This document shows, one piece after another, positions 19,561 through 51,900 of a stretch of 64,000 nt of DNA. Below the pieces are notes generated by a model, which saw only the letters and a list, made by a program, of their open reading frames with translations, did not search any database and was not told the origin of the DNA. This DNA comes from Diphasiastrum complanatum (taxonomy: Eukaryota; Streptophyta; Lycopodiopsida; Lycopodiales; Lycopodiaceae). The stretch lies in NCBI GenBank assembly GCA_029204225.1, contig CM055100.1, positions 17,497,650-17,561,649 on the forward strand. The letters are read 5' to 3'. Within the stretch, counting starts at the first letter, position 1, and every line of letters starts with the position of its first letter. The position numbers and the translations under genes were made by a program.

Positions 19561-20449
19561 TCCACTTGTGCACAATTCAAAAGTTCAACTGTTTTTAACA
19601 CCTTCGGCTTTTTTGCAAAATGCAAAGAGAGAGAGAAAATTTTTGAAGCTCATCTACTTTTCAAAGTTGAACTGTTTTATGGCACTTTTGACTTTTTCGC
19701 AAATCCCGAAGAAAGAGAAAAAGCAAAGGTCGTCTATTTTGAACGAGGAATGTTCCCAGCGACTGAAGTGGAAGGTCAGGCATGGAGGTGGCGGAGTAGC
19801 GTGTATTATGCGATGGTTTTGATCATGGCGGTGGTGATGGTAGGAGTAAAGGTCATGTTTTCATCCCTCTTGTACTCATGCCATTGCCACCCTCTCTATC
19901 ATTTTATTTAGATCTTGTAGTTTTTGTTTTTCACTATTTATGCTTCATGTCTTGTAATTTTCATCTATTTTCTTGCTACAACTTTTGTACAAAACTCTCT
20001 GTTTATAGTAGGAGGACATAGATCTGATGTGACTCTCCAAAAACTGAATCCTCAGCATTGAAAATGTATTTTCATAATTTTTCAGTCTTTCACAATATCC
20101 AATAAACCATTATGCCCATTGCAGATCCAAATAACTAGTTAAGTTATTGAAGAGAAGATAAGATGTTTTAGGGTACTAGGATCTTTAGGATACAAAGATC
20201 CATCTATCCACAGATCCAAATTCTTCTTTCCTTCAATCCTATAACGTAGATGGTCCTCAATAGATATTGATAATCCTTTGACTCCTCTTTCTGTAAAGGT
20301 GCCAAGTCAATAGGAATGTCCAAATGAATATGATATAAAGTTGTCATTATAAATTGTACAAAACCAGTGGAAAGCTTCAAAGTACTCATAATATAAATAC
20401 TATAAAATATTTGAATGCAAATATATTCTTACTTGATACGAGATAACCC

Positions 20450-20755: not shown

Positions 20756-21608
20756 TAAAGAATATGCAACCATAACAATAGTTGATTTGCTTAACCATAA
20801 CTGTAGACAAAACATTGGGAGTGGTGTGGACGAATAAACAATAGTGTTCTATTTATTAATACTTTTTTTTCTCATCCTATGTGGCATTTCTTATAGGGTC
20901 TTTTCTAGTTTGAAACCCCTCTAATGCGTAGTCCTAGTTTAGGAGGAGAGCATGATAGTCCATCTATAGAATGCAACCATTTCTCTATCGAGCATTCTTT
21001 CCTTCTTCCAACAATGACAAACAAAAATCTACAAAGCAAGTCTCTGTTATAGCAAATTTGGAAGCATATATGGTGAGTAGTCATTGAAAAAGGATATTTT
21101 AGACATTAGAATTGAATATGAACAAATGCAGGTAATATTGCATTCTATTCAACTGAGAATTTGCAGTTACTGAAAGATGTGGAAATATTAACAAAGAAGG
21201 CTTAAAAAAAAAAAAAAGTGACAATCTTGCAAGGATATTCAAAATCTCTCGAGAGAAGCTTACAGAAATAGAAGGATTCGTGCATTCAAGTAGATATTTT
21301 GTAATTTATCTCAGATGCTTAGTTAAATATGCTTATGCAGATTTGTTTTCTAATCTGTTTTCTTTCAATGCAGATCTGCGTTGGTTGCAAATCAAGATAT
21401 TTGCTGGTAGATTATCTACCAAGATCACAATCAGCCAAAAGTCTACTTCTTGGTGTTGGTTAATCCAAGAACTAGAGTAATAGACTTGTAATTATGATTT
21501 CAACCATGGCATCTTGTTGTGTAAGACCATGAGTTGAGGGAAGACTATTTAGTTATATTAAAGTTTGTTAGATGTGACTCAGTAGTGGGGAGTTCAACAA
21601 CATTTGGT

Positions 21609-21996
21609 TATAGAAAGTGACAACCCGGAAGCTCGAGGGGGGGTAAGAAAAGAAGATATAGAAGAAGAGATGTCGATGGTGTAGAGGAGCGAATAGTTGT
21701 GTACTGGTGATCAGTGTAGTGATTTACAGAATTGACGAGGGAGCACAATTTGTGCATGGAGTTTCGTAAGAAGTTATTTTCATTGGAATGAGAATCCTTG
21801 GGTATAGAAACTGACAGCCCGAAAGCTCGAGGGGGTTAAGAAAAGAGGAGATAGAAGAAGAGATGTCGATGGTGTAGAGGAGCGGACAGTTGTGTACTAG
21901 TGATCAATGTAGTGATTTACAGAATTGACGAGGGAGCACATTTTGTGCATGGAGTTTTGTAAGAAGTTATTGTCATTGGAATGAGAATCCTTGGAG
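21609..21996. repeat. Tandem duplication, 194 bp period
   Basis: Two direct copies are nearly identical over their whole length: GCTCGAGGGGG recurs at 21631 and 21825, and GATGTCGATGGTGTAGAGG, ATTTACAGAATTGACGAGGG and CATTGGAATGAGAATCCTTGG recur in the same order. No open frame spans them. The high similarity suggests a recent duplication or a small satellite. Confidence 0.85.
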
Positions 21997-24420: not shown

Positions 24421-24456
24421 TTATGTTGCTTTCAACGCTATTATACATGAGTATAT

Positions 24457-25200
24457 TTGAGCTATCTTTTCATTATGCTTGCTAATTATGGAGATCTAGA
24501 TCCATGGTGGATTGATAGTGGTGCAAGCTCACACATGACTTTTCACAAAGAGTACTTCACTTATTTGTTGGCATATGGAGATGACAAGAGGGTGATCTAC
24601 ATGGCCAATGAAGGTGAGCGTGCAATCAAAGGGATTGGCACAATTCCTATTTCTCTCTCCAAATAGGAATGTTCATTTGGAAGATGTTTTGTTTTTTCCA
24701 TCTATTACCAAGAACCTGCTTAATGTGAGTCAATTGCTAAGTAAAGGCCTCAAAGTGGAGTTTGATGGAGATGCTTGTATGATCAAAAGGAAGGATATCC
24801 TAGTTGCAAAAGATAAAAGACAAGGGAAGTTGTCCAAACTAAATGCTTGTGTTATTGCCAACCAAGTTGGATGTGTTGCAAGAGAGCAAATATCTATTCA
24901 AGAGGTTTGGCATAAGAGGATGTGACACCTCAATTTTAGGTCATTGGAGGTAATGGCAAGAAAGAAGGTTGTGGTTGATCTTCCAAGTTCCTTAAGTAGC
25001 ATCAATCATGTTTGTGAGTCTTGTGCTTTGTCAAAGTCACATAGACTACCTTATACTAGATCTACAAAGCATTTTCAGGTTGTACATTCGAATATTCATG
25101 AAATTACTACAATTAGCAATAGTGGAGCTAAGACATTAGGGGAAATATGGGCTGAAAATGGGCCCTTTAAGAAATTTTACCTTATAGAGAGGTTACGTAG
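24457..25200 (+). pseudogene. Ty1/copia protease and pre-integrase fragment
   Basis: The protease motif WWIDSGASSHMTFHKEYF lies near 24505-24560, then a frame change near 24640, then ITKNLLNVSQLLSKGLKVEF. A stop at 24922-24924 precedes the pre-integrase histidine/cysteine region (CESCALSKSHRLPY). Integrase proper is reduced to a few codons. Same family as the minus-strand piece at 5650-6118. Confidence 0.8.
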
Positions 25201-25558
25201 AGAGAGAATGCAAACCGGTAACTTCTGGTCGTCGTTTTCCGAGTTTCTGGCCTTGCCCGACGTTTAACTAGTATGGTTAACTTCAAGCAATAGTTAGTTA
25301 AGCATGAGATGTAATAACTTCTCTTCATGCTTGTTCCAAAATTCGGGACTAGAGCTTTAAGACTGAAAATCTCGGTGTGCTCAATGCAAAAACCGAAGCA
25401 GGAGTGGCATAGCTTTTGAAATCACTGTATGCTTATAGTGAAATATGAGGCAGGACGATTTTCAATGTGACATAAACATTACAAAAGTAAGGTATGCTAG
25501 ATCGAATCATATTGATTTACTGTAGTTTGATGCATTTACATGATTGTAGCTTTTAACA

Positions 25559-26128
25559 ATGGCAATGTTCCATTTGCATGTTGCTCTTCCAATGGAATGC
25601 ACTCCAATTATCAAGAAAAATGCAAAAGTTGTAGAGAATACGGCTGCAATAGTTAGAGAATTGAGAATGAATAATCAAATGATTATAGATTTGTGGGTGG
25701 ATGAATCAATTTATCCTAATGATCCAGCTACCAATTTGTGTCCAGATTTTAAGTTCGTAACTCATCTTCTCAAATTTATATGTGAAGGAAATAGCGAATT
25801 ACTTGGATATTGTCATAGGTTGCGTGATATTGGAATGCATAGCATATCTTGTCTTAATCAACAATTACAGTTTGCTAATCAACAATTGCAACATGCAAAT
25901 CAGCAATTGCTTCATTATGTGCAACACACTAGTGCTGAAAACAATGCACTCAAGAATGTTATGTCAGAGTTGAATGCTACAGTCACTACTCTTCGGGGAT
26001 CAAACCAAGAAATATTAGAATCCATGGAAAAGTTGTGATCCGAGAGTTTAAAATTTGCTGTTGATATAAAAGCTATCAATAAAGCAATGATGAAGAGGAA
26101 AAGAAAGAGAGAAGAATATTGATGACTT
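25559..26128 (+). pseudogene. Unrecognised coiled-coil ORF, one in-frame stop
   Basis: A 159-codon open frame starts at ATG 25559. It has a Gln/Asn-rich heptad-like repeat (NQQLQFANQQLQHANQQLL) around residues 100-122 and further predicted coiled coil behind it. After the TGA at 26036-26038 the same frame stays open for about 28 more codons and ends in a basic cluster (KRKRKRE), which looks like a nuclear localisation signal. I do not recognise the family. It lies 150 bases upstream of another decayed gene in the same direction and may be its first exon or ORF. Confidence 0.45.
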
Positions 26129-26281
26129 ATCTACACATAGCGGCAACCAAAAAAAAAAATATTCGAGCATTCAAGTATGTTGTCATATAAACTATTTATT
26201 TGATTTGTATATGTCATTTAAGCTTGATTTGCACTTGGTAACATGGATTATTTATTTATTAAACATAATTTGAGTTTCGTA

Positions 26282-27870
26282 TGTTTGTTGCAGATCATGT
26301 TTGGTGGCAAAGAACTATTTAACAGATTGTTCATGCATTAGATCATCTTTAAGTCATGTTTTACCAAGAAAGTCAGCAAAGGAAATGCTGAAAAATGCTC
26401 GGTTTGAAAAAATGAAAAATGAAATTGTAGAAACTATTTTGATTAAGGTCCAATCATATTTGGACACAAATACAAGGTGCATGTAATGTTTCTGGAATTA
26501 GCAGAAATGCTTATTCTACTTTTTTTAGAATAGTTAAAGAAGCTTTTTCCCAAGTGAAGGTGAAGAAAATTTATCTTCCGTGTCCATATCGGGTAAAAAT
26601 AGCAAGAAATTATTATAATGACGGAATGGTCAAAGTAGTTGGTCAACCACTCCATATAACTAAATTATACAAATCAGAATATGGTGAGCTTAATTACAAT
26701 GATTGCAACAATATTTTCCTTGATATTGAAAATGTTCTAAAATACATTATTTGATTCTATAAACTAGAAGAACATCAAATAAATGGAAAGATCATTATTG
26801 TAATAAAATTGGATGAATCTGAAATCATCAAGGGTCAAAAGTTGGAACGAGTGAGTGTCACTTTGATGAACAAAATTTCAGATACAAATGATCAAACGTT
26901 TAGTGTTCAATCGGAAAATCACATATGGTGGTTGGCGGCATTCCAGGTATTCATTTCAATTTTCATTTAGAATATCGTTCTTAACAATTCATACCTTGTC
27001 AATTTTTATTGAAATGTCATGCATTACTTGCTTCTCTATAGGTCTTGAAAGAGGACCATAAAATACTTTCATGTATATTTTCAAGAACAAATTATGGCGA
27101 GATTATAAAGAGACATTTGGAGGGTGAGAAATTTACAGTAAAAAACCATGGAAGTTTTCAAATTCAATGGCACCTTGCAGGGGATTTGAAAACATTAAAA
27201 TGTATGTATAATGTCTCTCGCAACATCAAAGCATCCATGTCTTTATTGCATGACGGATTGCTACAATATGAATTTGGGACGATCAACAAACATTGGCCCA
27301 ACACGAGAAGCTGAAGATCCAAATATGAAAAGTGTTCTGCCAATTTCATTAGAAAATGTTCACATGTGCACATTGCATGCTGAGGTTCGTATTATTGAAA
27401 AACTTATTTGCCTGCATATTCTACTAGCATGGAATCATAAACCAGAGTCTGTGGCTAAAGCAGCAATTAGGAGGTTGGAAATAGTTTTGTCAAATGCAGG
27501 ACTACATAAAGGGAATGTCACGATTGAAAAAAGTAACAGACTCTTCGGGAAAAAAGGAAACGTTCCTAATAAGCCATCAATTGGAGGTGCTAAAGCAAGA
27601 AGATTCTTATCTAATCACACATGCAAAGAATCAAGTGTCAGATACGAAATTTGGAGAGAAATTGTTCAAGCCACACAAACACTGGAAGGAAGTAATTGAG
27701 TGGAAAAGGGACAAGTGTGGACCAACTTAGACAAACTCATAGGTGTTATCAGGAAAGAAAACCTATCATCAGAAGATATGAGGACTTTGCAAAATCATTG
27801 CTCCACATTTGTAAAATTTGTACATGATTGTTGAGAAAAAGACAACATTACTCATTACATGGTGTTAATC
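26282..27870 (+). pseudogene. Unrecognised intron-containing gene, decayed
   Basis: Open stretches on the plus strand join into one plausible gene. The frame from 26554 runs to 26947 with a single TGA at 26753-26755. An apparent intron follows (GTATTCAT at 26948 to TATAG at about 27041), then 27042-27310. A frame change near 27200 leads to 27211-27699, which contains SKHPCLYCMTDC and ENVHMCTLHAEVRIIEKL. Another frame near 27715-27830 reads LGVIRKENLSSEDMRTLQ-like sequence. A Gly-Asp-Leu-Lys block before a Cys-x2-Cys box, followed by a Cys-Thr-Leu-His block, is a layout I associate with uncharacterised, transposon-like proteins in many eukaryotes, but I cannot name the family. Frameshifts and stops make it non-functional here. 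Confidence 0.45.
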
Positions 27871-28172
27871 TATATCATTATCTGGTACTTTTCTCATTCA
27901 GGCTTATATTTTTTTTTACTGATGATGTAGCTAATCAAAACTATTGTTCGACCGTGCACTGTATATGAAGGCGCGCGTCGATTCGATATCTCAAGAAAGA
28001 AAGAAAACAAGATGACTAGTGAGTTCTAAATGAAAGACCACAAAATCGAAATATAGAGAAAGGTGCCCATATTTATAGCCCATTCCTATTGATCACAGCC
28101 ATACATTTGTCAAATAATGAATTGAGGAACATAGCCTATATTTATCCACCAATCATAGTGAGACAAATTTGT

Positions 28173-28285
28173 ACCTACGTTGGAATACATTAAATAGTCT
28201 ATCACTAGATTCTACAAATCATCATTAGCCCTGATCCTAGAATCTGTTCCTACGCCGGAATACATTAAATAGTCTATCACTAGCC
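28173..28285. repeat. Short tandem duplication, about 77 bp period
   Basis: CCTACG--GGAATACATTAAATAGTCTATCACTAG occurs at about 28173 and again at about 28250 with two mismatches. Non-coding, inside the motif array. Confidence 0.75.
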
Positions 28286-29313
28286 TCACTGAATCATCAT
28301 GAAACATATAATAAACAAATATTAAATGGACAACATTGAAAAACGTGTACGAGGAGAATCATTTTAGACTCTCGCCCTATTTAAGGACCGTAAAGATGAG
28401 ATTTTTCCTTTTAAAATAATGTTCATTCTAAACATTTTCATAAAGTGTTCATAATGCATTCCAATATATATTCAGTGCGTCTCAGATATCGGATCCTCGC
28501 GTGCCTGTGGAGAAGACAATGATTTTTCACTTGGACTGTGCGCGTCGAATCGCTATTGTAGGGAAAAAAAATTGAAATTTTTTTGAAATTATTAGAGAGT
28601 AGTTTGCATGATCAAAGCTTGATTCGATAGACTCTTCATACTATCCACAGCTAAGAAGAAATTATCGAGTCAAGCTTTGATCATTCATATTATCTTCCTA
28701 TCGGTTCAGCGCGCGAGAATATCCTCTCTGGTTTTCACATTCAGTATATGCGCGATTCGCTATTAGGTGAAATAATGGCCTTTGGAATTTTTCAAAATTA
28801 TTATGATTGGATATAAAAAAAAAAGTCAGATATTTATAGCTTAACCTTGTCAATTTCAGCAATAAATTGTAGATGTGACCATACTTTTGTAGAATTAATT
28901 ATAGATGTGACCATACATTTGTTTTAGTTAATTGTGGTGGTTATTATCGACTAATCATTTCAAAGAAAGATTGGTATTTAATCTGATTTGATTGACAAGT
29001 CTCTGAATATCTCGAAGTAATCCGAGCCTCGGACATCCAAACCACCACGTTTGTAATCATTTCGGATTTTCACTATATAAACAAACAGACGACGCTGAAA
29101 TTTTTTTGCTTAAATTTCTTGTCGTTCTCTATATCCATATGATATCGATTCAGCGTGCTCGAAGCAAACTTCCTTCCATCAGCTTTTACTCACACACGTG
29201 CATCAGCTACCAGCTATCGGTTAGGTTTATTTCAGGTATCGGTTGGACGCGCTCGACCTGACCTTTGAACCTGAGTTATTCTCCATCGCGCGCTGATCCG
29301 CTATTGGATACTA

Positions 29314-30084
29314 ATGGAGTGGACTAAGCAGACAACACGAGTCCACCCTGGTGGATTCCCAATCACAAGAGGGGGTCAGGGAAATGCACCACCACCGCCT
29401 CGTCCAGCACCACCTTCTCCTAGGCCAAGGGGCAAAAGACGAGACCCACCCTGGCTCAAGGATATTCAAAAGCTACAGAAGACAAATAATCTTCTGATTT
29501 CGAAAGCTCACATACAGAGATCCATTAGACAAGTTATAAAAAGTCTATCTGTAGATGCAAGATGGATTGTAACGGCAGTAGAGGCGCTGCACACTACATA
29601 TGAGGACTTCCAAGTGAAAAAAATTTTAGATACTGTTGTTGCAGCTATCCATGCCAAGAGGGTGACCATCATGCCCAAGGATTTCAGCATTGTGTTCAGG
29701 CTACGGGACACATATGACAAATTTGTAGAGTACTTTAGACATGATGCTTGCTCTCCTCCAAAACAAGATTCAAAGAGGAGAAAACGAAAGCAATCTCAAC
29801 CATCCCGGCTTGTTATTCGTATACAGAGCGGGAGTGTTTCAAAGAAGAGGAGGTCTCATGACCCTCCTAATAAAGCGAGGGATTTTTCAAAGCCATCTCC
29901 TCTAAATGATATTCTATTTGCTAGGCAATCTCCCCCCAAGTCTCCTCCTAAGTCTCCTTCTTCTCCTCCCAAAACTCCATTATTAACTTCTCCTGCTAGA
30001 TCTTCCTCTCCTACTCCTCCTCCTTCAAAATCTTTGTCTCCTCCTACCCCCATAGATATTAGTTCCCCACCTCCTAGGAAATGA
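29314..30084 (+). CDS. Divergent histone H3-like protein with proline-rich tail
   Basis: 256 codons from ATG 29314, uninterrupted. Residues 50-123 align without a gap to canonical H3 from the end of the alpha-N helix through alpha-1, loop 1, alpha-2 and loop 2; I count 34 identities in 74, ending in the invariant AIHAKRVTIMPKD. The N-terminus (MEWTKQTTRVHPGG) keeps the H3 register around T3-K4-Q5-T6, R8 and G12-G13 but lacks K9, S10 and K14. Residues 23-48 are Pro/Arg-rich instead of the K18-K36 region. After the fold come a basic cluster (about 154-162, likely nuclear signal) and S/T-P-rich repeats to the end. A host H3 would be 136 residues and nearly invariant, so this is a captured or variant H3. 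It sits 75 bases upstream of a Ulp1-like gene, inside the motif array. A one-base shift near its stop would extend the frame toward that gene, so a fused product is possible. Confidence 0.85.
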   Translation: MEWTKQTTRVHPGGFPITRGGQGNAPPPPRPAPPSPRPRGKRRDPPWLKDIQKLQKTNNLLISKAHIQRSIRQVIKSLSVDARWIVTAVEALHTTYEDFQVKKILDTVVAAIHAKRVTIMPKDFSIVFRLRDTYDKFVEYFRHDACSPPKQDSKRRKRKQSQPSRLVIRIQSGSVSKKRRSHDPPNKARDFSKPSPLNDILFARQSPPKSPPKSPSSPPKTPLLTSPARSSSPTPPPSKSLSPPTPIDISSPPPRK

Positions 30085-30159
30085 TTTAGATGATTTTGTA
30101 AATGTAAAGGTATAATCAATTTTGAATGACAATTCTTTTGTGGTTTATTTGTATTACTT

Positions 30160-30780
30160 ATGTCACCCCTTGCACTTGCCTTTGTAAATACTCCTCAATA
30201 TGTACATTATGACCAATTGTTGAACACATATCTTAAAGCTTTAGGTCCAAGATACAGTTTTAAGATGCCAAAGACCAATGCTGGTCTTTCCCTTTCTAAA
30301 TTAGATACAGGTGAATTAGAAAGTAGGGATAAATTGTTAGGTGACAATGTAGGAGGTGGGGTAATTCAGTATTGGATGGAGTTTTTCCAGACCCCATTGT
30401 TTACAGATGTAGCATTGTTTCCCTTTCAATTCATGGTTGCATGTGATTTCCCTGATTTCAAAAGTCTGCACGATGATATGCTCCAATACGTCAGACTGGG
30501 GACTCCAATTCTCGTGCTCCCATACATAACAAAGTAAGTGTATTTTTTTCAGATTTTATTAAGTTCAATTTTTCATATGAATTTTGATTTCACATTGATT
30601 CTCATTAATTTATTGTTTTCTGATTGCAGTGATCATTGGAGCTTATACGTGTTGTCCTTATACGTCAATGATGAGGGTGTGTGTAATCCAGTTTGTTTAA
30701 AGATGAACTCTATCACACACACAAAATTGCCAGGAGCCATATCCAGAAAATGCAGGAACTCTTTCCAGTACCAAATGTAA
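30160..30780 (+). CDS. Ulp1/C48-type protease-like protein, C-terminally incomplete
   Basis: Exon 30160-30533 joins exon 30630-30780 across a 96-base GT-AG intron (GTAAGTG ... GATTGCAG); splicing creates TNDHWSLYVLSLY in frame. The HW pair, preceded by a hydrophobic ILVLPYI strand, matches the catalytic His region of Ulp1/SENP cysteine proteases, and GDNVGGGVIQYWMEFF resembles their N-terminal part. The position where the catalytic Asp is expected reads MNSI, so Asn may replace it. The Gln and Cys of the active site are absent: the frame ends at 30780, and a shifted frame runs to a stop at about 30853, inside a copy of the array motif. Family knowledge: C48 domains are often carried by plant Mutator- and CACTA-type transposons. 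Probably inactive as a protease here. Confidence 0.6.
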
Positions 30781-30989
30781 TAGCATATACGAAGCTGAAA
30801 TATGTTGATGCAGAGATAAAAAATTTTCAATATCGGTTCGACGTGCCCTTGTAGCTATTGTTTGGTTTCTTTTCAAATCGTGCGCGTTGATCCGATATTC
30901 AAACAATATTTTTTGGATATCGGTTTGACGCGCGTTTGATTCCATTGTTGATTTTATTATAACATCCTGCGCGTTGATCCGATATCTCA

Positions 30990-33839
30990 TAATGTTAAAA
31001 TTTTGATACTGCAGTCTTCCCAGCAAGTTGATTTTGTAAGTTGTGGTTGGTATACGGTATGCAACGCCACTTCCCCTTGGCAAGGAAAAGAGTAAGAATT
31101 TAGTGCACGTAGGCCACTCACACCAAGGAGGACCAGTCAAAGGACAATGGGTCGTTGGAGGAGAATCAACCTCATAAATGTCATTAAAAAATAGCTACAA
31201 AGGGCTTCTAGAAATTTATGTAGAACTTTTTGCATGGTGGAGGATATATAAACGAGAGGGAAAAGGAGAAAATCGTTGATATAGTTGAGCTATGGTTGCG
31301 TATTGTTGTTATCATGTTGATGAGTATGAGAGCATTGTAATCCTTCACATTGAGCAAATCATGAGTGAAGTCATCCACCTAAGAAAAAGAACCGATCTGT
31401 GGAAAGAAATTTGATTGAGAGAATGAACTTAAATTACCATGATACCATGTCACACCTAGCCAACCTTGGATCAAGAATAGAGAGTTAAAAGAGAATTCCA
31501 TGAGCAAGTATGATGCTTGATATTTCCAGCCCCACCCAATTGACATCTAGACCAGGTTGGGATCCTCTCCTTGCAGTTGTACTCCTAGGAGCCTAGAACA
31601 CTCTTGACTAGGGGATATGTGATAGTCAAGATGGTCCCCACGATTGGAAGGACGGTCCCCTGATTGCTCGCTTAAGGGCAATGTGGGCCCACTAGGGCTT
31701 TTTGGCTAAATTAATCCCCTGTTATAAATGCCCCTAACAAAAATAAACCCAGACCGTATGTCTTAGAGTATGTAGGTATACATATAAAAAATATGTATAC
31801 TATAAAACACTATCGTAGACCATAGAATATAGAGACTCCAAAATCTGTAGTATTTTGTACATATGATTTGTATACAACCATAGGTTTAGGCATAGAGCAA
31901 TAGACATTCTATTTGTAATATATACATGAAATATTTGAACCATAGGTTGAATAGCAGCCTACTCTAAAGATAACTCATCTTTGTTTGAACTTCGTTCGTT
32001 ACGTCAGCGTATCAAAGATTGATTCTTCAAATATACATACCGAACAGCTCAAAAAATACTTGGTATAACCACATTCTCCCACATCTAAACCTTTCAAAAC
32101 ATTGTGATAACTTTGTCCTTGCTTTTCAAAAGCAAGCACTAACTTCAAACAACCTATATTGTTAACAAAACAACAAACATTCAAGTTTGGTTCAACCTGA
32201 GAAAACTTATCTCAGCATTTTCAGCTCTTTCCAAAAAAAAAATGAAAGGAAAAAAATAACCTAATGAACACTGCTTCAATCATAGAAAACATAATAGGTT
32301 CCTTCCTAGTCAAGGCCATTGTCCTTGACCATTGTATCTTTTCATTTCTTGTTTTTAACTTCTCTTGTTTAGAGTTTGAAAGTTGAATGTTTTCCACATT
32401 GTCATCTTGCAAGGGTTGTTTCCAGCTTTTATTCTCAGCTTCCAACAACTTGGGTTGAGGTCAGCTGATTTGTAAGAACATCATTGTATGTATTACTGAA
32501 CTTTGAAACAAGAAAAGCTTCTTCAATTAAATACAGGCCCATCCTTGCTCTCAAAGAACTCTAAGATTAATAATAAACTCTCTGAGATGCACAAATGAAG
32601 AGGGCACTTGAAGCATATAACAGGTTTGTTGTGGACAAATTGTCCAAAAAGAGCTCTGAGATGGCTAGAAAAGTGGAGAAATAAAAGTATCTGTGAGAGC
32701 TCTGATAACTTTATACATGTTGTAGTAGTTCAAAATAGATCTTAAGACTTCCAATTTCCTCAAACCTTCATTCTGATACCTAGTATTGCCAATAGGCTCT
32801 TGCCAAGAGAAAATGAACAGTTGGTCAATATTATAAGGTAAGGTAGCAACCAAATGCTTAAAACTTAGAAAATGAGAAATGTTTGAAACTTTTGGAAAAA
32901 TGCTCTGAACATTTAAAACATGTATTCCGATTCTGTAAGGGCCCGAATAGAACAATTTTAAGGGTGGTGTGGAAATTATTGCGCGCTAGTAACAGACAGC
33001 ACTAAAACCTTTAGTTTCAAACTATACCAAAATGTCCACCATTGCATATCGCTACACACTTGAGGTTCAACTGATTAAGAATATGACCCCTTGTTCCTGA
33101 AAATCACAAAGTACAATACGTAAAACACAAAAAGAACCAAATGCTTACAACTTTCAACAAAATGTTGACAAAAAAGTTGATTGAATACATGATCGCTTTT
33201 TCAGAAAAATCACAAACAGGAGTTCAAACTTCTAAAAAACCCACGAATGTCTTCATCAGCTGGAATTCCTGAAACCATCTAATAAGGAACCTCAAAAGAA
33301 TTCAAAGCTCCCAAATTTGAATTGGCCCATTTCTAAACACATTGAATCTCTTCCAAACACGAGGAGATACTACTAGGTATAAGGAATCCACCTTGCTTGG
33401 CATCTACAAAATTGTCGAGGCAGTGGCTGCATGGCCAAAAAGTTCACCCACTGGAATATTTTTGAATTTCAAGAATAAAGAATTATTGTAATATGTCCTG
33501 TTAAAGGCTACACCATTGAACATCGTGCTTCATACCACCTTATCCCTCACTACACTGCTTACAAGAGAGACAATGGTGCATCAATGTTGCTTGTGCAACT
33601 AACAGGTCAACACTGTACTTTTTAACTCAAAAGTAATAAGAATTTTTCAGCTTCTAGGAAAAAATAATGAATAGGTATAAGCGGAAAAGTACAATCAATA
33701 TATCGATCAATTGCTAACTGGCAACAGTCATCTACATCCTACTTTAATCTAGAAACAACACCACTCTGAGAAACAATGACAATCAGGTTCCTTGATTGTG
33801 CCCTGATAAGCCTGCATTGCTCTGTACATCCAGCAGGCC
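30990..33839. other. AT-rich sequence downstream of the host gene
   Basis: No recognisable coding sequence. Open frames of 60-147 codons on the minus strand (30697-31140, 32221-32448, 32665-32955) show no motif I know. The first ~100-250 bases before 33840 on the minus strand would be the 3' UTR of the host gene. Confidence 0.4.
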
Positions 33840-45918: not shown

Positions 45919-48900
45919 TAGATATATATCATAGTACCTCGTGGTACTGCCGGTACGGTACCGCCCTGGAATCCGCGGTACCAAGGCGGTACCATTTTTA
46001 ATATTTTTTTTATTTTTTAATATATTTTTTAATAAAAAAATTTTGCATATTAACTACCAAAAAAGGACAAAAAAAAGTAAAAAAAGGGGGTTTTGGGTGT
46101 AAAAAAAGAGGGTACAGTACATGATGCAGGGGACTGTTGCAGTGGCACATGGGCACTGCGAGTGAGCAGACCGAGGGGCCAATGGGAGACCAACACAGGG
46201 GGGTAGCATCACATGGGGGCAAGTACAGAGGCACATGGGCATTGTGGGTGAGCAGACCTGGTGTAATAGATCCTAACACCACAGTAGGGCAAACACTAAC
46301 TGATCCACCCAACCTTGCCTACTCCCTGATATAGAGTAAGCCCCTCCTAGCCCAGTGTGAGGACTGGTAGCATGCTACTGCCAAGTGTCGGCCACGTGGC
46401 ACTGACGTGGCCGACTGCACGTCGGGACCCAACTGGGGGCCCTATCCGGCTGACAGGGTCCCTAGGCTGTGTTAGGCCCGCCATGGCTATGGACCGTGCT
46501 GGGGCACACTACTCACACTGTCTTGCCCTGTTGGTCATGTATGCTGGACACGACCCTGACTGTGGTATCTGACCTATCTGTGTTCTCTAGGGTTCGGCAC
46601 TGGTTACGAGCTCGTAACACTCCCTCCCCCTTAAGAACCGTCTTGGTCCTCTAAGACAAAGTCTGGAAAAATCTTGCGAAGGACGCTGCCTCTTTCCCAA
46701 GTGGCATTCTCAACAGGCTGATCATTCCACTTAACCAGATATTCTCGGTATAGAGTATGACGAGTCTGCGTCTCTCTACTATCAAGAATTTCCTCTGGTT
46801 CATGTGGAGGTTGTTGAGGATCCAATGGGAGAACTAGAACACTGTCCCCTACCAGATTATCTGATCTGGTTAAGGCTTTTCGTAACTGACTTACATGAAA
46901 AACTGGAAAAACCTTACTGCTGTGTGGGAGTTCTAGTTCATAGGTGACCTCGCCTAGTCTCCTACTGATGGTAAAGGGACCACAATACCTTGGAGACAAC
47001 TTAGCACACACTCCTGATTTGAGGGTTTTAGAGTCAACTGGGACTCTCAAGTAGACTCTCTCACCAGTGGAGAACTGCACATCCCGTCTGTGTGGATCTG
47101 CATAATGCCTGGCTCGATCCTGGGATTGTCTAATGCTACGCTTAGCATGTTCTATCATCTGGTTTAGGTCTTCTAAAAAGTTTCTGGCTGCTTCAACTTT
47201 TTCTTGTTTAAACCCTACAGCTGTGGGTGAGCGTGGCTGAAAACCGTACATCAGCATAAATGGGCTGTATCCCGTAGCTGAATGTTTGGTACTGTTGTAA
47301 GCAAACTCTAATATTGAGAGATACTCCTCCCAATTAGTCTGCCTCTTGCTGACGTATGCACGAAGCATATCCTCCAGCACTTGATTTACCCTTTCTGTTT
47401 GACCGTCCGTCTGTGGATGGTCGGTGGTACTCATATTAAGTTTAGTATGGAGATGATGGAATACTGCCTTCCAAAAATTTCCAGTAAACTTACTGTCCCG
47501 GTCGCTGACTATGCCGGAAGGTAGACCGTACAATTTAAATAGCCCGTCTACAAACAACCTCGCTAACTCTGGAGCTCTAACGGTTGTTTTGGTCGGAATA
47601 AAATGAGCCATTTTGGTCAGACGGTCAACTGTGACCCATATAGCGTCATTACCCTTTTGGGTTTTAGGCAGGCCTACTATAAAATCCATGGAGATACTCT
47701 CCCATTTACCAGCTGGTATTTCTAAGGGATGCAACAACCCTCCTGCCTTTAAACGCTCTGCTTTATTTACTTGACATTTCTGGCAACTGGTTACATACTG
47801 GTGGACGTCCTTTTTCATACTGGGCCAGAAAAATTGCCTACGAAGAAGCTCATAGGTCTTCTGTATGCCTGGGTGTCCCGCGCTAGGATTGTCATGACAT
47901 TCATATAGGACCTGCTGCCTATAATCCTCTGAATTGGGGACACATACTCTATCTCTATAGAGCAAGTACTCATCCTGAATGGAATACTGTTTCCATTTGA
48001 ATCCTTGAGTCAACTGACCCTCAACCACTGGGGTTTGCTTGGGTGATACAGGCTCAGAATCCTCAACGTCATCTGATGACGTATACTCGGACTCATCATC
48101 ATCCTCAACGGAAGCTGCCGTATTCTTGGATGAACTGGCACCAGCCCCGGGAACTGGTTCTGGAGTCTGTAACTGTCTGTTCTGGACTGAGTTCCAGATA
48201 ATAGAGAAGAATGCATCATGCTGGCATTTCCCTCTCAAGGACTCGAGTAACTCATTACGAATCTGAGTAAAACTCAGCTCGTTTATCATAAGCATTCTGC
48301 TAAGGGCATCTGCTACTGTATTGAATTTTCCACGCCTATATCTGATAGACATGTCAAACTCTTGCATCAACTCTGCCCAACGAGCTTTCCGACCTCTAAG
48401 CTCAGGTTGATTGCAAAGGTATCTGAGACTCTCATGGTCTGTCAGGACCTCAAAGTTGGCACCATACAAATAATGCCTCCAAGTCTTAAGGGCATGGACT
48501 ATAGAAAAGAGTTCCTTTTCATAGGCACTATACCTAGTCTGTGCTGGCTCGAGTTTTTTACTCTCGAACGCAACTGGTCGTCCACCCTGAGTTAGCACAG
48601 CACCTACTGCAAAGTCGCTAGCATCTGTTTCGACCACAAATGGCTGATTGGGGTCGACGACCTTTAAAACTGGTGCTGTAGCTAAGGCTGTTTTGAGAGC
48701 ATCAAAGCTCTCCTGTTGTGCAGACTCCCAAATGAACTCCTTTCCCTTCCCCTTAAGAAGATTTGTCATAGGGACTGCTATCTGAGCATATTCCTTGACA
48801 AATCGTCTGTAATATCCCGCCAGACCAAGAAAGATTTGAAGTTCCAAAATATTCTGAGGTCTCAGCCAACTGAGTATGGCTTTAACCTTATTTGGGTCCA

Positions 48901-51900
48901 TCTTAATCCCATCTGAAGAGATAATGTGACCCAAATATGCTACTTCTTCAACGAAGAATTCACACTTGGATTGTTTAGCATAAAGCTTATGCTTTCTGAG
49001 CAGTCGAAACACCTTTCTGAGGTGTTTTAGATGCTCCTTCCTGGTTTTGCTGTAAACGAGGATGTCATCTAAAAATACGACTACAAATTTACCCAAGTAT
49101 GGTCTGAGGACACTGTTCATCAAGGTCATAAAGGTAGCTGGAGCATTTGTGAGCCCAAATGGCATCACCTTAAACTCATAATGACCGTGACGAGTCCTAA
49201 AGGCTGTTTTTGAGACATCTTCCGATTTTATACGGACTTGATGATATCCCGATCTAAGGTCTATTTTACTGAAAAACTTAGCCCCGTCGAGTTGATCAAA
49301 CAACTCGTCTGCTCGAGGCATAGGGTATTTATTCTTAATTGTGACTTTATTGAGGGCTCTGTAATCTACGCAAAGACGCAAGTTTGAAGGCTGCTCCTAC
49401 AGCGATCCTCCTCCTCTATTCCTCTCTGAGAATCTGAGAAACACTTCCTATCTTTTGATAGCTTTCTCTACTGCTGTCCTGAACTCCCTAGGATGGAGAT
49501 GGCTCTGATACCAGTGTAATAGATCCTAACACCACAGTAGGGCAAACACTAACTGATCCACCCAACCTTGCCTACTCCCTGATATAGAGTAAGCCCCTCC
49601 TAGCCCAGTGTGAGGACTGGTAGCATGCTACTGCCAAGTGTCGGCCACGTGGCACTGACGTGGCCGACTGCACGTCGGGACCCAACTGGGGGCCCTATCC
49701 TGCTGACAGGGTCCCTAGGCTGTGTTAGGCCCGCCATGGCTATGGACCGTGCTGGGGCACACTACTCACACTGTCTTGCCCTGTTGGTCATGTACGCTGG
49801 ACACGACCCTGACTGTGGTATCTGACCTATCTGTGTTCTCTAGGGTTCGGCACTGGTTACGAGCTCGTAACACCTGGGCCCAATGGGAGACCAACACACG
49901 AGGGAGCATCACATGGGGGCAGGTACAGAGGCACATGGAGGGATGATGGGGATCCACATGGCCGATCAGGCTGTGAGGATAAATAGGCACTCACAATGCC
50001 ATTGTGGTTGGCATTTTCAGAGGCTGTGAGAGAGCTAGTGATAGACAGCGAGAGAGCAAGCGAGAGCCAGTGACAGGCTGTGACAGGCTGTTTGAGAGCC
50101 AGGGTGCTGTGAGAGGGTGTTCAAGGACCAGGGTGCTGTGAGGAGAAGGTCGATCGAGATGGCAGAGCGCATACCACCGAAGCCCGAGGGCGAAGCCAGG
50201 AGGAAGCTCGAGGAAGATATCCGCAGGCACAACGAGAGGCATCGGAAGCAAGAGGCAGATATCCGAGAGATGCTGCGACAAACTCGACAGAGAAATCCGG
50301 AACCGGAGCCACCCGCCCCCGCTGTGGGTCCTGTCCCCGCTGTCGAGCTGGATCTGGATGAGCAGATCGGAATGAATTTCACACGACGGCAGCTCATCAT
50401 GGTCAGGGAAAGGGCGGCCAGACGTCGGGCTAACCAGGAGGCAGCTCGGGCTAACCGGGAGGCACAGCAAGAGCGACAAAACAATGCACCAGACGAGGGC
50501 GAGGAGTCGGTGGAGGATCAGTGAGAGATGTTTAGAATAGATGAGGTCCAGCCGTATGTGGCGGACTGTTGCTATGTAGTTTTCGGCAGTTTATGGTGCA
50601 GCAAATAACTAGATGGCTGCTTAAAAAAATGACAGTATATGTGATGTTATCCTGATACAACGGTTGAATATATACATAGTTGTTTTTTGTGCAACGCGAG
50701 CCTGGTCATGTAAGATGCAATGTCTGTAATTTTTTTAAATGCAGATGTATTACATGTGTTTATGAAATGTTGTTTGGGGTGTAGGGATGATTGTTGTGCT
50801 CATGATGTAGGTGCATATATGTGAAGCTAGCATTCACTTCAAACGAAATTAAATGAAAACAGGATTCAGACATGCACATAGAATTCTTCGACATAAAATA
50901 AAGCATCACATGTACAGAGCGACATACGCACAATGTGCAGCAAATAATGTAGACCAAACACTGTATATAATGTGAAAAATCATCTGAGTACAATGGTAGA
51001 CCGTCTGCTAGAGACAAACTACTGAAACTAAAACAACAGAGCCACAATCAATGCTCTGGCTCTGACTCAGACGAATGCTCTGGAGACAACTCATGGCCCC
51101 GAGCTGACTCTCGCAGCCGATATCTCTGCCTGTCTGGAACTAGCATGGGCTATGTATCCGAGGGGGAAGACTCGTCATCCTCATCCTCCCAATCAACCTC
51201 CGCATCAGCCCCCAAGCAGGCCAAACCAACAACACCTGCTCCAACTGGCTGTGATACTGCACCTCTACCTGTACCTGGAGCCCTGCGTGGTCGTCCTCTC
51301 CTCCCTGGCAGTTTCTGTGCCTTGCCTTTCTTGTTCGGTGCACCCTTGGGCCTTCCTGGTCTCTTGCGGACAAGAGGAGCTGTCAATGCCTCGTCACCCC
51401 CATGCAAATCACCTGGCTGGCTAGGCTAGGCCCAAGCTGAGACCGGCTGGGATAGGGAAGCAAAAGAGGGAACTCCCTGTGCAACTGAGCGAGGAGGATG
51501 AGCTCGTGGAGTGTGTGCCCGTGGGGCTGCTGCAGATGGAGGAACTGGCTGTGCAGGAGGCGAGTACAGTGGCGATAGGTACTGAAAGGGGCGCTGTGGT
51601 GGCCGGTACTGGTACATCCTGGGTGCTGCCAAAGGAGGAGGATGTGACGTGGGTGCTGCAACTGGAGGAGCCACTGTGGATGTGGGCGCTGCAAGAGAAA
51701 ACCTGGGCACAGATGGTGGCCTGCCATGGAGACCTGGTGCTGCAGAAGTGGACGACGATGGAGGGGCTGCAAGCCTAAATGGCATCAGTGGCACTGGAGG
51801 AGCTGTGCGACGCACATACACCCTCTGAGGAGCTAGAGGAACTGTAGGCACCTCGTGTGGCTGCTCTGGCTGGGACTCTGTGTATGGCATGCTGGCAAGA

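Follow-up and report, generated by a model that had tools for sequence, protein, structure and literature searches.

A histone H3-like gene was analysed in a 64,000-nt stretch of the Diphasiastrum complanatum genome (assembly GCA_029204225.1, contig CM055100.1, positions 17,497,650 to 17,561,649 of the forward strand), which in its full length is called the window here and whose own numbering is used throughout. The gene is an intact, intronless open reading frame (ORF) of 256 codons at 29314–30084 on the + strand, and it lies between a broken transposase-like gene upstream and putative Ulp1-like exons downstream, amid an array of short noncoding modules. The translation matched Pfam Histone PF00125 at 2.8e-16 in a profile search and H3 of the PDB at 4.1e-17 in a sequence search (best 60 of 173 matches), thereby ruling out a chance ORF. 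The predicted structure was a histone fold as well (Foldseek and VIA results refer to the best 50 matches). The encoded protein would consist of an N tail with TKQT.R..GG, a proline-rich linker, an H3 core at residues about 46–134, an extended alpha3 and a C tail that is nuclear-localization-signal-like and SPPK-rich. The core is identical to canonical H3 at 37/89 positions, that is, 58% diverged, while a 13-residue run, AIHAKRVTIMPKD, is kept unchanged. An intact, strongly diverged H3-like ORF with a C-terminal extension had been proposed in the initial annotation, together with the profile search and the structure prediction as checks, and both checks bore it out, the second at the level of a predicted model of the protein alone.

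The N-terminus reads M-E-W-T-K-Q-T-T-R-V-H-P-G-G and was aligned to A-R-T-K-Q-T-A-R-K-S-T-G-G of H3, showing that K4, R8 and GG are retained and that V replaces K9. No lysine occurs at residues 6 to 40, and the only lysines among the first 60 residues are at 5, 41, 49, 53 and 56, so the tail lysines 9, 14, 18, 23 and 27 are all missing. The equivalents of K56, K64, K115 and K122 are retained in the alignment as read by eye. The missing tail lysines indicate that the protein is an H3 variant, and an ordinary canonical H3 is ruled out by them and by the divergence of the core. As glutamate follows the initiator methionine, the latter is expected to be retained and acetylated, and readers needing a free A1 therefore should not bind this protein.

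The C extension comprises ~120 residues (about 140–256), a basic part being followed by an S-P-P-K-rich one. Residues 144–201 of it (29743–29916, +) are matched in the D. complanatum protein P0087 (O6H91_16G009700), in which the stretch QSQPSRLVIRIQSG...NDILFA is 28/44 identical without gaps, with a score of 137 compared with a maximum of 60 among 2000 shuffles; P0087 has no Pfam domain and no H3 core. Homologues were searched among 5.8 billion proteins, covering relatives of 0.55–1.75 times the query length that share 5-residue words; at 136 residues, the usual H3s are too short for this range. In this search 101 of 5850 candidates passed 1e-3, and 100 of the 101 carry a Pfam histone domain (H3, CENH3 or H3-containing), the remaining one being P0087. 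In three of the homologues, P0063, P0067 and P0077, encoded on contigs of 14–24 kb, the H3 core is preceded by 200 or more residues with a long additional domain (TLTLPTGPTHMTLTESF...). Pattern scans of IMG/VR gave 20 matches for the H3-like protein and one for the transposase alignment, none of which was confirmed, and a viral origin is thus not indicated by that database. Just past the H3 stop, at 30085–30108, GNDLDDFVNVK is encoded in a different frame and ends at a potential splice donor; it is perhaps the original C-terminus.

The state of the core was compared with neutral change by a rough simulation of 4000 runs, in which one canonical H3 core was brought to 37/89 identity by substitutions only, without indels. 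Stop-free sequences made up 5.0% of the runs (mean, 2.9 stops), and an identical 13-residue run was kept in 0 of the 4000. These results argue against a decaying copy, not for any given function, and they bear on the explanation that the ORF is a functionless captured H3, a transduplicate or retrocopy that stayed intact by chance. The absence of an intron is as expected for a retrocopy, and plant H3 genes can also be intronless. The transposase and Ulp1-like exons alongside are broken, and a precedent exists in fungal hAT elements (PMC6710886), both of which favour a functionless capture. However, 58% core divergence without a stop or indel and with the unchanged run is unlike neutral decay in the simulation, and the C tail is conserved, as indicated by the match to P0087, and we consider this explanation unlikely.

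The class of the protein was evaluated by hidden Markov models (HMMs), a tree and single residues. The HMM scores were 75.3 bits for H3, 73.3 for CENH3 and 69.9 for plant CENH3, the lowest of the 11 rows on each model, with the CENH3 sets including hand-entered sequences. In the tree, from which P0051 was left out as too short, the protein sits on a very long branch near the plant CENH3s, at an open fork and with a long-branch warning. Among the positions at which the Syzygium CENH3 (P0026) differs from H3, it shares eight residues with CENH3 and seven with H3 by hand count. CENH3-like residues are W in place of F84 of H3, D-F at 98–99, F at 124 (within K-D-F at 122–124) and L at 130, and the proline-rich N tail is also common to plant CENH3s. 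In contrast to these, loop 1 is gapless against H3 with no CENH3-type insertion, AIHAKRVTIMPKD is kept with P121, and the protein carries the C extension of 120 residues. With tied HMM scores and a long-branch placement, a settled CENH3 identity was rejected.

These data also bear on the explanation that the gene is a host histone variant, CENH3-derived or a lineage-specific H3 with a centromeric or germline role, which lies in a transposon-rich region by chance. The intact and constrained ORF, the CENH3-like residues with the count of eight against seven, and the attachment beside plant CENH3s agree with such a variant. On the other hand, the tied scores and the missing loop-1 insertion count against it, the placement in the tree carries a long-branch warning, the C extension is shared with a protein without histone domain, and no orthologue was found in the 5.8-billion-protein search within its length range and shared 5-residue words. 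A host variant is somewhat unlikely.

The array around the gene consists of seven ~69-bp modules of inverted 18-mers, the arms of which face each other in pairs, and in the 64-kb window it occurs only at 27.9–31.0 kb. Only the right arm (27972) was recognised in module 1 (27921–27989), while in module 3 (28698–28765) the left arm was found by scan and the right arm by eye, and in module 4 (29142–29210, 69 bp) the right arm is weak (9.8 bits). Both arms are present in module 2 (28486–28556, 71 bp) and in modules 5 (29236–29304), 6 (30830–30898) and 7 (30917–30985), each of 69 bp; no strand is assigned to any module. Module 5 ends 9 bases ahead of the H3 ATG, and modules 6 and 7 lie between the Ulp1-like exons 2 and 3. 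Two 16-base module queries with up to 3 mismatches gave 8 and 9 matches in 64 kb, compared with 0.05 and 0.10 expected; every match fell within 27973–30984, and none of 100 shuffles reached these counts. The flanking motif array of the initial annotation was thus confirmed. A weight matrix gave 12 matches above 8 bits, all in 27972–30985, a result that is circular as the matrix was trained on the same sites. Outside the modules, 27990–29313 had a CpG observed/expected ratio of 0.84, compared with 0.34 for the H3 ORF and a median of 0.43 over 500-bp windows, and the retained CpGs upstream of H3 would be consistent with a lack of methylation, which they do not prove. An inverted repeat of 41 bp with an 11-base loop lies at 28600–28692, between modules 2 and 3.

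Upstream, a transposase-like gene of a fern-related family spans 25553–27873 (+) and is broken, its frames ending at stops at 26038, 26754 and 27699 with frame changes between them. The predicted fold of this family, RNase H-like, matches RAG1/Transib transposases, whereas no Pfam family, MULE included, was matched at its cut-off. Candidate catalytic residues D182 and D282 were located in the family member P0105, and a CxxC motif lies 20 residues past the second conserved Asp. In RAG1 the corresponding CxxC lies 19 residues past it. The members P0141 and P0145 have a C-terminal exon that includes a candidate Glu; this exon was not found in the window. Further fragments of the family, similar to the N-terminal portions of P0111, P0113 and P0125, are located at 20100–20303 (−) and 21208–21401 (+), a direct repeat pair (193 bp, 92% identical) at 21604–21994, and a Copia fragment at 24451–25096, which ends just upstream of the transposase-like gene and for which no continuation was found downstream.

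The arrangement could also mean that the H3-like gene belongs to a separate element, formed with the Ulp1-like exons and the modules, which truncated an older RAG1-fold neighbour, now a relic. The transposase stops at about 27873–27927, a module sits where its C-terminal exon is expected, and the modules span 27.9–31.0 kb, not the transposase gene. Moreover, the relics at 20.1 and 21.2 kb suggest that the family is simply common here. However, the strand is shared, a gap of about 100 bases separates the transposase from the first module, and neither a boundary nor a target-site duplication (TSD) was found between them. A separate element appears very unlikely.

Downstream, three putative exons on the + strand were delimited by eye. 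Exon 1 (30160–30533) starts at the Met of MSPLALAF... and is followed by a 96-bp GT-AG intron (30534–30629); exon 2 (30630–30822) carries DHWSLYV and shifts frame close to a CA repeat (about 30700–30735); and exon 3 (31015–31068) holds a Cys motif (Q, five residues, CG). They read LLGDNVGGGVIQYWMEFF, NDHWSLYV and SQQVDFVSCGWYT, respectively, resembling the WL.D, HW and Q-x5-C-G parts of the Ulp1/C48 protease pattern. A Ulp1 identity is a guess at the level of motifs, and as a settled assignment it was rejected for want of profile support. The adjacent Ulp1-like gene of the initial annotation accordingly stands as far as the HW and Q-x5-CG motifs seen by eye. The H3-like and Ulp1-like ORFs are 75 bases apart in the same frame. 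Inspection by eye gave no GT-AG pair of suitable length for splicing the former onto the latter, and the two are hence treated as separate genes.

Plants silence transposons chiefly via H3K9 methylation and DNA methylation. Against this background, we tentatively read the locus as an H3 variant borne by a DNA transposon and forming silencing-resistant nucleosomes on its element, a possibility that falls short of being probable. The H3 paralogue would be an accessory gene of a seedless-plant-type DNA transposon, which would also encode a RAG1/Transib-fold transposase and probably a Ulp1-like protease. Its product, with an intact histone fold, would pair with host H4 and take the place of H3 in the nucleosomes of the element or of its vicinity; recruitment may be through the basic, SPPK-rich tail or through a protein binding the 69-bp modules. 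Lacking K9, K14, K18, K23 and K27 and keeping K4, such nucleosomes would refuse H3K9/H3K27 methylation, by which the promoter region of the element might escape silencing, and the Ulp1-like protease may strip SUMO from silencing factors. Anti-silencing by nucleosome replacement is the simplest idea uniting transposon genes, an unmethylatable H3, noncoding motifs and a possible SUMO protease.

Several observations weigh against the transposon-borne reading, chief among them that nothing but their adjacency ties transposase, H3, modules and protease into one unit. As a broken gene in which the C-terminal exon was not found, the transposase may be an unrelated neighbour; its RAG1 match is structural only, since hmmsearch with A1 (the transposase-like family) against PDB sequences gave 4 unrelated matches, the best with an E of 1.9. 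The Ulp1-like exons have no support from Pfam, NCBIfam or PDB sequences, and the CpG observed/expected ratio of 1.86 in the modules is circular, as the motif itself contains CGs. No second copy of the H3-like gene occurs within the window, and no close full-length relative with H3 plus tail was present among the 101 matches. When the C tail plus the Ulp1-like exons served as query, none of 485 candidates reached E <= 0.01, and P0087 itself was not listed among them. The search for terminal inverted repeats (TIRs) with TSDs yielded 4 candidate pairs with 3-bp TSDs, compared with 2, 2 and 4 in three shuffled controls. Five TSD-like pairs (4/5 TSD letters) with ends like recombination signal sequences were found in the window, none enclosing the H3 locus, and no CACWRTG left end was found at 20–30 kb, where the transposase copy is truncated. 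Hence, of the transposon-captured H3 proposed in the initial annotation, the position next to the relic of a transposase, in a motif array specific to this locus, holds, while element ends, TIRs, a TSD and a second copy in the window were not found; the observation is real, the reading partly supported and mobility unproven. The window further holds Copia, Gypsy and hAT-like ORFs, which, taken with the lycophyte tail match and the fern relatives of the transposase, suggest a seedless vascular plant as host, and Rfam and tRNA scans of it gave 0 and 0 matches. Two similar stretches at about 39.5–45.2 kb and 50.1–55.7 kb, with the same tandem repeats and ORFs (BED-finger-like, perhaps hAT, and large acidic/proline-rich ones), flank a Gypsy-type pol ORF at 46631–49321 (−).

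Capture of H3 by transposons is already known in fungi. In Dothideomycetes, hAT transposons captured and amplified histone H3, with 26 copies in Pyrenophora tritici-repentis and hundreds in Pseudocercospora fijiensis (PMC6710886). There, too, an intronless H3 coding sequence lies beside DNA transposase sequence. However, the P. fijiensis copies are host-derived, mostly truncated and inactivated by repeat-induced point mutation, whereas the present H3 is intact, 58% diverged in its core, without K9 and K27 and with a conserved C tail, and the neighbouring transposase is not hAT. In Arabidopsis, noncoding tandem repeats in VANDAL transposons are bound by VANC proteins, which remove silent marks (PMC10398659). 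Ulp1 capture is known for plant MULEs, and Ulp1 domains, of unknown role, occur in related VANDALs (PMC13317346). The VANDAL/KIU elements have accessory genes, a Ulp1-like domain (here motifs only) and short repeated noncoding motifs in common with this locus, and the proposed element would resemble VANDAL anti-silencing in its logic. In contrast, they encode a MULE transposase and VANC, where here a RAG1-like fold is predicted and no MULE Pfam match was found, and no histone gene is reported for them; a 2026 review of gene capture in plants has 0 occurrences of the word 'histone' in its main text. The published fungal capture, together with Ulp1 capture by plant MULEs, makes the statement of the initial annotation that no such system had been described too strong in its broad form. 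With the animal RAG1-RAG2-like/Transib systems (PMC4411706, PMC7204232), the predicted fold of the neighbouring family and the CxxC spacing are common, but here no profile match and no RAG2-like gene were seen, neither CACWRTG ends nor a 5-bp TSD were found around the locus, and the relatives are in seedless plants. Among the papers listed in a literature search with few subscription journals, none described a RAG1/Transib-fold transposase in plants or a plant transposon coding for an H3 variant, and the present combination did not appear.

The full combination, that is, a plant transposon encoding a silencing-proof H3 (with K4 and no methylatable K9/K27) on its module region, plus a de-SUMOylating protease and a plant RAG1-fold transposase, is quite unlikely to hold in every part. 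If true, an element supplying its own K9-less H3 would be a direct answer to plant silencing at the level of the nucleosome, and it could be asked whether K9 on the nucleosomes of one locus is needed for silencing. Independently of the histone, if ferns and probably lycophytes have a transposase family with the RAG1/Transib fold, the fold of V(D)J recombination would occur more widely than known so far.
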